In this document: positions 21,435-30,696 of the stretch, piece by piece
Numbering within the stretch: the stretch's first letter is position 1
Layout: each line of letters starts with the position of its first letter
Origin: Microcaldota archaeon
GTDB taxonomy: Archaea > Micrarchaeota > Micrarchaeia > Burarchaeales > JAKAKT01
Length of the DNA: 59,636 nucleotides
Direction: 5' to 3'
Assembly: GCA_021813385.1 (NCBI GenBank)
Contig: JAKAKT010000100.1
Location: 1 to 59,636 of the forward strand
Program-made: the position numbers and the translations under genes
Notes under the pieces: model-generated
The model's input: only the letters and a program-made list of their open reading frames with translations
Databases searched by the model: none
What the model was told of the DNA's origin: nothing

Positions 21435-21693
21435 GCTCCAGTAGTCTAGCTCGGTCAAGGATTCCGGCCTTTCGAAATCAGAAACCCCTACGGGTTTCCG
21501 ATACCTTCCCCCTTCGGGAGAAGAAAGCCGGTGACCCGGGTTCAAACATCCTTCCCTTTTCTTTCAGATTCGGGCTGGCGCCCGAATACGGGGAAAGTTG
21601 TTGGCAACTTTCCCTTCGGAAAAGAAAAGGTCTGGATCAACCCCAAAAGAAAAACGGTGAAAACCTAGGGGTTTGAAAATCCCGGCTGGAGCA
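21435..21693 (+). tRNA. tRNA-Glu(TTC) with two introns: about 21475-21525 in the anticodon loop and about 21547-21679 in the T-loop
   Basis: Acceptor GCTCCAG/CTGGAGC, anticodon stem CCGGC/GCCGG with loop CTTTCG..A, T-stem CCGGG/CCCGG all perfect once introns are removed; T-rich tract follows. Confidence 0.85.
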
Positions 21694-30473: not shown

Positions 30474-30579
30474 AAAAAAAGCGGGCCCGATCCCTAAACC
30501 GCAGGGGGAGCGCCCCCTTCAGTTTTAGGGCTAATCCTGATTCCCCCCTCGAACTCAACAACATATAATAAAAAAAAGC
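30474..30579 (-). repeat. Repeat of tRNA 3' acceptor plus terminator (CGGGCCCGCTTTTTTT) with an intervening strong hairpin
   Basis: aaaaaaagcgggcccga at 30475-30491 and again at 30571-30587; hairpin ccctaaa...ttttaggg with inner agggggagcgccccct-type stem. Confidence 0.5.
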
Positions 30580-30696
30580 GGGCCCGAAGGGATGTGCACC
30601 GCAGGTGCACAGACGATTGCGCTGTGCGCAAGCGGATTCGAACCCTTATCCCGAGGTCCGAAGCCTCGTCGGCTATCCGGATTACCACACGGGCCC
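30580..30696 (-). tRNA. tRNA-Arg(TCG) with a 44-nt T-loop insertion (about 30592-30635)
   Basis: GGGCCCG/CGGGCCC acceptor, CGAGG-CTTCGGA-CCTCG anticodon arm, AAGGG-TTCGAAT-[44 nt]-CCCTT T-arm; T-run downstream. Confidence 0.85.

Follow-up and report, generated by a model that had tools for sequence, protein, structure and literature searches.

How can a tRNA gene interrupted in both its anticodon loop and its T-loop still yield a tRNA, and where does a T-loop insert of 133 nt come from? These questions are raised by the tRNA-Glu(UUC) gene of contig JAKAKT010000100.1, which belongs to a metagenome-assembled genome (MAG) of a Micrarchaeota archaeon (the host genome, labelled G000; 1.78 Mb, 105 contigs, 93% complete). 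The window analysed was the whole contig of 59,636 nt, and all coordinates are forward-strand positions on it. We consider it probable, at about 0.8, that this is the sole detected tRNA-Glu(UUC) gene of the genome, that it is spliced at bulge-helix-bulge (BHB) motifs, and that the intron in its T-loop represents one copy of a small structured element which has spread among the tRNA genes of the lineage.

The gene consists of three exons and two introns, all on the forward strand. Exon 1 (21435-21474) carries positions 1-37, with the 5' strand of the acceptor stem, the D-arm and the anticodon, and is followed by intron 1 of 51 nt (21475-21525) at the canonical position 37/38. Exon 2 (21526-21546) supplies positions 38-59, namely the anticodon 3' strand, the variable loop, the 5' strand of the T-stem and TTCAAA; intron 2 of 133 nt (21547-21679) lies in the T-loop at 59/60 and belongs to a repeated intron family; and exon 3 (21680-21693) closes the gene with positions 60-73, comprising the 3' strands of the T-stem and acceptor stem and the discriminator A. 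The initial annotation had claimed that a tRNA-Glu(UUC) is restored when these two segments are removed, and its coordinates proved exact. The joined exons make 75 nt with the perfect stems that it had predicted: 7 bp in the acceptor (GCTCCAG/CTGGAGC), 5 bp in the anticodon stem and 5 bp in the T-stem. The pair U13-G22, A46 and the absence of base 47, features familiar from work on tRNA-Glu identity, are all found in the spliced molecule, which in this is a standard archaeal tRNA-Glu. With both introns removed ARAGORN called tRNA-Glu(ttc), as it did when only intron 1 was retained and introns were allowed; no call was made on the unspliced DNA, nor with only intron 1 removed. The window gave no match to Rfam families when gathering thresholds were applied. 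The unspliced RNA folded 4.4 standard deviations better than its dinucleotide shuffles.

To place the splice sites, the BHB motif had to be considered, because repeated A's allow the boundaries of intron 2 to be set from the sequence alone anywhere from 56/57 to 59/60. Among these candidate positions, a regular exon side of the BHB was obtained only at 59/60, with the T-stem, a UUCA/UGAA helix and the 3-nt bulges AA^C and AA^U; the 3' strand of this central helix, TGAA (21674-21677), pairs with TTCA of the T-loop (21541-21544) and is followed by the bulge AA^T. The T-loop position 59/60 is the equivalent of 37/38 in the anticodon loop, each falling after the sixth base of its loop and before the seventh. 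When the BHB of intron 2 was forced, the fold reached -59.1 kcal/mol against an optimum of -59.7, a cost of 0.6. The pairing of the intron ends (ttcaaac with gtttgaa), at first taken for the BHB site, does include the 4-bp central helix, but is itself a competing continuous helix and not a BHB. The position 56/57, which suits the relatives' loci L091 and L094, was tried for intron 2 and rejected, as the central helix fails there by eye. In the family at large, the central helix was complete (4/4) in 33 of 46 introns, compared with 1.6% in shuffles. Intron 1 at 37/38 can form a relaxed BHB with the central helix CUUU/GAAG (-24.0 vs -27.3 unconstrained); the motif fits and yet is not the best fold, so this intron would be of the relaxed type. 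The splicing endonuclease EndA of the epsilon2 class is reported, in the summaries given by two reviews, to accept such motifs (PMC4033280, PMC6379350). The initial reading of a twice-interrupted tRNA-Glu(UUC) is supported, with both introns of BHB type.

The enzymes for such splicing were found in the host genome. Its epsilon2 EndA is a full-length three-unit match to 4FZ2 (461 bits), an ortholog of the ARMAN-2 enzyme, and it keeps the catalytic Tyr236/His251/Lys282 as well as Lys161 of the loop (residue numbering from PMC6379350), a lysine that the reviews, in their summaries, link to broad specificity. The ARMAN-2 endonuclease is described as having been crystallised with RNA (PMC12397907). 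A gene for the RtcB ligase is also present (C73:5225-7939, locus L306). We infer that both introns are spliced in the cell, where the ARMAN-2-type EndA would excise them and RtcB would seal the exons. The RtcB open reading frame (ORF) contains an in-frame insertion of ~460 residues that looks intein-like (it ends in SNC after a splicing-type block), and the RtcB matches in G001, a genome from the sister genus in the same family, and in a further genome, G004, are broken at the same point. Both genera also have another EndA paralog, a shorter one, immediately 5' of tRNA-Thr(GGU) (L172, 355-993 on host contig C75; L174, 255-749 on G001 contig C64); by eye it keeps the Tyr and Lys, with the catalytic His apparently replaced by Ala or Pro, and it is possibly a structural partner subunit.

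A search for another tRNA-Glu(UUC), suggested in the initial annotation, was carried out with a pattern of the tRNA-Glu 5' half at ≤3 mismatches. The window gene was the one match, and no second tRNA-Glu(UUC) 5' half, hence no intact copy, was found in the 93%-complete host genome by a pattern that missed the host Glu(CUC), whose anticodon loop is interrupted; a Glu(UUC) copy interrupted within the matched stretch could therefore escape it too. The same pattern, which in relatives also tolerates CUC anticodons, matched in 74 of 99 class genomes. When the relatives' tRNA-Glu genes were aligned, T-arm introns of 29-133 nt were seen at several T-loop positions in ~16 of the ~90 read. Anticodon-loop introns at an apparent 34/35, within the anticodon, occur in tRNA-Glu at loci L188, L201 and L205, including the Glu(UUC) ortholog of G001, and the window gene has its own at 37/38. 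One could argue that the gene is silent, having been disabled recently by the T-loop insert, given that the insert would abolish an unspliced tRNA. We regard this as highly improbable: no other Glu(UUC) gene was found, all three exons are perfect, most other host tRNAs have inserts at the same place, and the Glu(UUC) gene of the sister genus has a T-loop intron of its own.

To describe how widespread such inserts are, tRNA genes were read locus by locus rather than from an exhaustive genome scan, and the anticodon labels of interrupted tRNAs were set by eye where ARAGORN misread them. On this basis a T-loop intron is present in ~31 of the 38 readable host tRNA genes (26 tabulated, plus five by eye or at contig ends), and the seven without one are Thr-UGU, Thr-GGU, Gln-UUG, Gln-CUG, Phe-GAA, His-GUG and Leu-CAA. 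The earlier remark that T-loop introns of this size are uncommon does not hold in this lineage, where they ranged from 25 to 171 nt in the host and from 75 to 244 nt in its sister genus. Another example in the window is tRNA-Arg(UCG) on the reverse strand (30579-30696), with an unrelated 44-nt intron at T-loop 59/60, for which ARAGORN placed the 3' end wrongly (30621). tRNA-Leu(CAA) (L076, host contig C39), with an intact T-loop, has a D-loop intron with a hairpin and a mirror-purine tail of the kind described below. The general tRNA family model scored above its cut-off at only 10 sites in the host genome; a warning follows that standard tRNA annotation overlooks most tRNA genes in genomes of this kind. 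The repeated introns probably also fragment the assembly and conceal tRNA genes, because contigs break inside those of Gly-UCC and Tyr-GUA (host contig ends C57/C59 and C12/C68).

The origin of intron 2 became clearer from its relatives. A blastn search with the 133-nt intron returned many copies in the host genome, the best of them 87-92% identical over most of the length and lying beside or in other tRNAs, with still larger numbers in G001. Across successive tRNAs, the sequence directly 5' of the copy was TTCAAA or nearly so. A covariance model of the core gave 21 matches in the host genome and 22 in G001. Of the introns of these two genomes, 28 have an orthologous counterpart in the other genome; the nearest relative lay elsewhere in their own genome, in a different tRNA, for 25 of them and was the ortholog for none. 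The Glu(UUC) and Gly(CCC) introns of G001, for instance, are 99% identical, while the Glu(UUC) introns of the host and G001 are 47% alike, and tRNA-Thr(GGU), preceded by the same gene in either genus, is empty in the host and holds a 214-nt intron in G001. This is the pattern expected if introns had spread by transposition or by repeated gene conversion.

A rival explanation invokes gene conversion. The introns may be ordinary BHB introns of the ARMAN kind whose likeness arose from conversion between tRNA genes and from shared structural demands, with no mobile element; T-arms all have similar exon flanks, which makes such conversion plausible. T-loop introns at several positions in many other class members, and introns of similar architecture that lack the core (Ser, Leu, Gly-CCC, Ala-CGC), also fit this view, to which it must be objected that orthologous tRNAs of the two genera hold very different introns. 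The placement of the core adds to the objection. Its model matched 68 of 247 class genomes and had no match in 22 genomes outside Micrarchaeota (Thermoproteales not among them); in a 24-genome background search, the sole match was in one of the two Micrarchaeota MAGs included. When ~70 core loci were read, most lay in tRNA introns, of the anticodon loop as well as of the T-loop, and the rest directly after tRNA genes or between genes; conversion of T-arms cannot bring the core to anticodon loops or to these sites outside tRNA genes. At L238, L240, L242, L250, L272 and L276 in other Micrarchaeota, the core is oriented like the intact tRNA gene before it and starts a few bases beyond that gene's 3' end. 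Furthermore, three intergenic copies (L289 in G054; L291 and L249 in G051, both genomes of the class) abut direct repeats of 11, 13 and 39 bp, compared with shuffled maxima of 9, 8 and 11. Gene conversion as the whole explanation is on these grounds unlikely, and we infer that the core has moved as a discrete element.

The repeats abutting these three copies resemble target duplications of variable length, and they bring in a further alternative, in which a DNA transposon of the MITE/REP type inserts widely and its copies in tRNA genes persist only if splicing can remove them. Copies located between genes in G002, G051 and G054 agree with it, as do the inverted-repeat arms CCCTTTTCTTTC/GAAAGAAAAGGG, which enclose an apical module seen in both orientations in G001. 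On the other hand, essentially all strong core copies of the host and G001 lie within tRNA genes, the flanking repeats vary from 11 to 39 bp and are absent at most other non-tRNA copies, and at three further copies the repeats are tRNA 3' ends that may just be adjacent tRNA genes. No autonomous partner was found either; among the transposase families searched, which were not all, Y1 was absent from the host and G001. We keep this alternative as a minority view of some standing. The Y1 transposase was rejected as the mover (as in a palindromic element derived from IS200/IS605, PATE), the enzyme being absent from both carriers; one was found in G002. A group II or other retro-intron was likewise rejected, as eight carrier genomes contained no reverse transcriptase.

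The repeated element itself has a core of ~55 nt forming a hairpin with a covarying base, at whose outermost pair AU, UA, CG and GC all occur, and with an almost invariant pyrimidine/purine stem. Across the alignment of the core hairpin, 95.5% of cells were paired, 47 cells carried double changes, and none of 500 shuffles was as good. In the window copy, the base of this hairpin A is made by ATCC (21548-21551) and GGAT (21634-21637), and within it lie the pyrimidine arm CCCTTTTCTTT (21554-21564) and the purine arm GAAAAGAAAAGG (21619-21630). Between the arms an optional apical module of 54 nt with two small hairpins (21565-21618) is present or absent depending on the copy; in two G001 copies it is inverted between the stem arms (L194 and L195, contigs C113 and C151). 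Here and in a few other copies, the linker CAACCCC can also pair with GGGGTT close to the 3' splice site. This second helix was rejected as a family feature: over 38 introns own pairs, at 4.26, were hardly above swapped ones, at 3.94 (maximum swapped 4.42).

About 10-16 nt 3' of the stem the element carries an A-rich tract with G, which in the window is the tail AAAAGAAAAA (21645-21654). Of 51 informative hairpins, defined as asymmetric with a stem core of ≥9 nt, 43 had a tail that mirrored the purine arm exactly and so complemented the pyrimidine arm base for base in the same reading direction; an ordinary antiparallel copy was found in 3 cases. When tails were swapped between hairpins, a mean of 12.8 mirror matches and a maximum of 23 in 5000 trials were obtained, figures that do not amount to a strict probability, as the hairpin sequences are mutually related. 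The rule is kept by fifteen different stem sequences, such as TTTTTTCTTTCTT with AAAAAAGAAAGAA and TTTTTCTTTCT with AAAAAGAAAGA, and some of these hairpins sit in introns otherwise unrelated in sequence; in the window copy both readings fit, so that it is uninformative. This mirror rule is the code that a purine-motif triple helix would follow if the tail lay antiparallel along the purine arm as its third strand; other third-strand arrangements are possible. Purine-motif triplexes, as outlined in PMC6115336, have an antiparallel third strand in reverse Hoogsteen pairing, and the tail obeys their code: A would stand over U-A and G would stand over C-G, with the tail running antiparallel to the purine arm. 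Our literature search returned nothing on point on triple helices in archaeal tRNA introns. If the tail does form a triple helix, it would be a natural third strand selected for the purine code.

How the element spreads may then be pictured as follows. The ~55-nt core, with or without its 54-nt apical module, would pass between tRNA genes of the Micrarchaeota lineage, and the T-loop would be favoured because TTCAAAT is almost identical in every tRNA. In whichever tRNA it lands, the intron end UGAAAA could pair with the UUCA found there and re-form a BHB open to cleavage, so that insertion at 59/60 would be tolerated irrespective of the tRNA hit. Three routes of movement remain: the element may insert where DNA is broken, it may be reverse-spliced and then recombine, or it may be copied by gene conversion. 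A more specific version, which we put forward only tentatively, is that of a tiny mobile element without enzymes of its own, a hairpin with a mirror-purine third strand, that inserts chiefly into the T-loop of tRNA genes but also after tRNAs and between genes, and survives through BHB splicing, the triple helix aiding movement or protection.

For the reading of a spliced tRNA-Glu(UUC) with a spreading T-loop intron speak the exon and intron anatomy, the homologous copies and their spread within the genome, the BHB pairing, the covariation of the hairpin, the mirror tail and the presence of the enzymes, all computed directly. Several observations weigh against it. The core is absent from about a third of the T-loop introns; the best fold of intron 1 is without a BHB, and a continuous 7-bp helix competes with that of intron 2; likeness among paralogs could stem from gene conversion between tRNA genes and not from movement of a discrete element; and the genome is a MAG of 105 contigs with several introns at contig ends. 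No transposase of the Y1 family, with the limit on families given above, occurs in the host or G001, and the lack of a reverse transcriptase in the eight carrier genomes, these two included, speaks against an RNA route by the host's own enzyme.

The tRNA-Glu(UUC) gene is flanked by two ORFs, one resembling thymidylate kinase and the other a LysX/RimK-like ATP-grasp protein (names assigned by eye); the closest named relatives of the ATP-grasp protein are in two Micrarchaeota MAGs, at 72 and 68% identity. Together with the ARMAN-2-type endonuclease, these relatives place the host genome in Micrarchaeota.

Transposed tRNA introns are known in Thermoproteales from work of 2010, as summarised in PMC4033280 and PMC4090602, and the latter, a review of 2014, gives the mechanism of tRNA intron transposition as unknown. 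A literature search on Micrarchaeota tRNA introns found nothing on point. With the introns of this system, the spread of archaeal tRNA introns now has a recognisable, countable element, and gain, splicing and movement become directly testable, because the copies are numerous and similar, orthologous sites occur both filled and empty, some copies outside tRNA genes have flanking repeats, and the ARMAN-2 ortholog of the endonuclease has been crystallised with RNA. As in Thermoproteales, similar introns occupy different tRNAs of one genome and are closer to each other than to their orthologs (25/28 vs 0/28). Unlike what the review summaries describe there, the host is a member of Micrarchaeota (DPANN), T-loop 59/60 is nearly saturated, a class-wide core carries a mirror-purine tail, and copies exist outside tRNA genes. 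The multi-intron tRNAs of ARMAN-1 and ARMAN-2 with epsilon2 EndA (Fujishima 2011; Hirata 2012; as reviewed in PMC6379350 and PMC4033280) share with the present case the phylum, the three-unit endonuclease and non-canonical intron positions; the summaries in these two reviews make no mention of a repeated homologous intron family or of the T-loop saturation seen here. In Caldiarchaeum, disruption of a tRNA gene by mobile elements has been described, and mobile DNA was likewise proposed as a source of tRNA introns in an archaeal population, according to the account in PMC3293823; that account concerns one tRNA locus, whereas here many tRNAs and a tiny structured repeat are involved. Set apart by the reviews' descriptions, the near-saturation of one tRNA site by a homologous family in DPANN, the class-wide core, the copies outside tRNA genes and the mirror-purine rule look new compared with these known systems.
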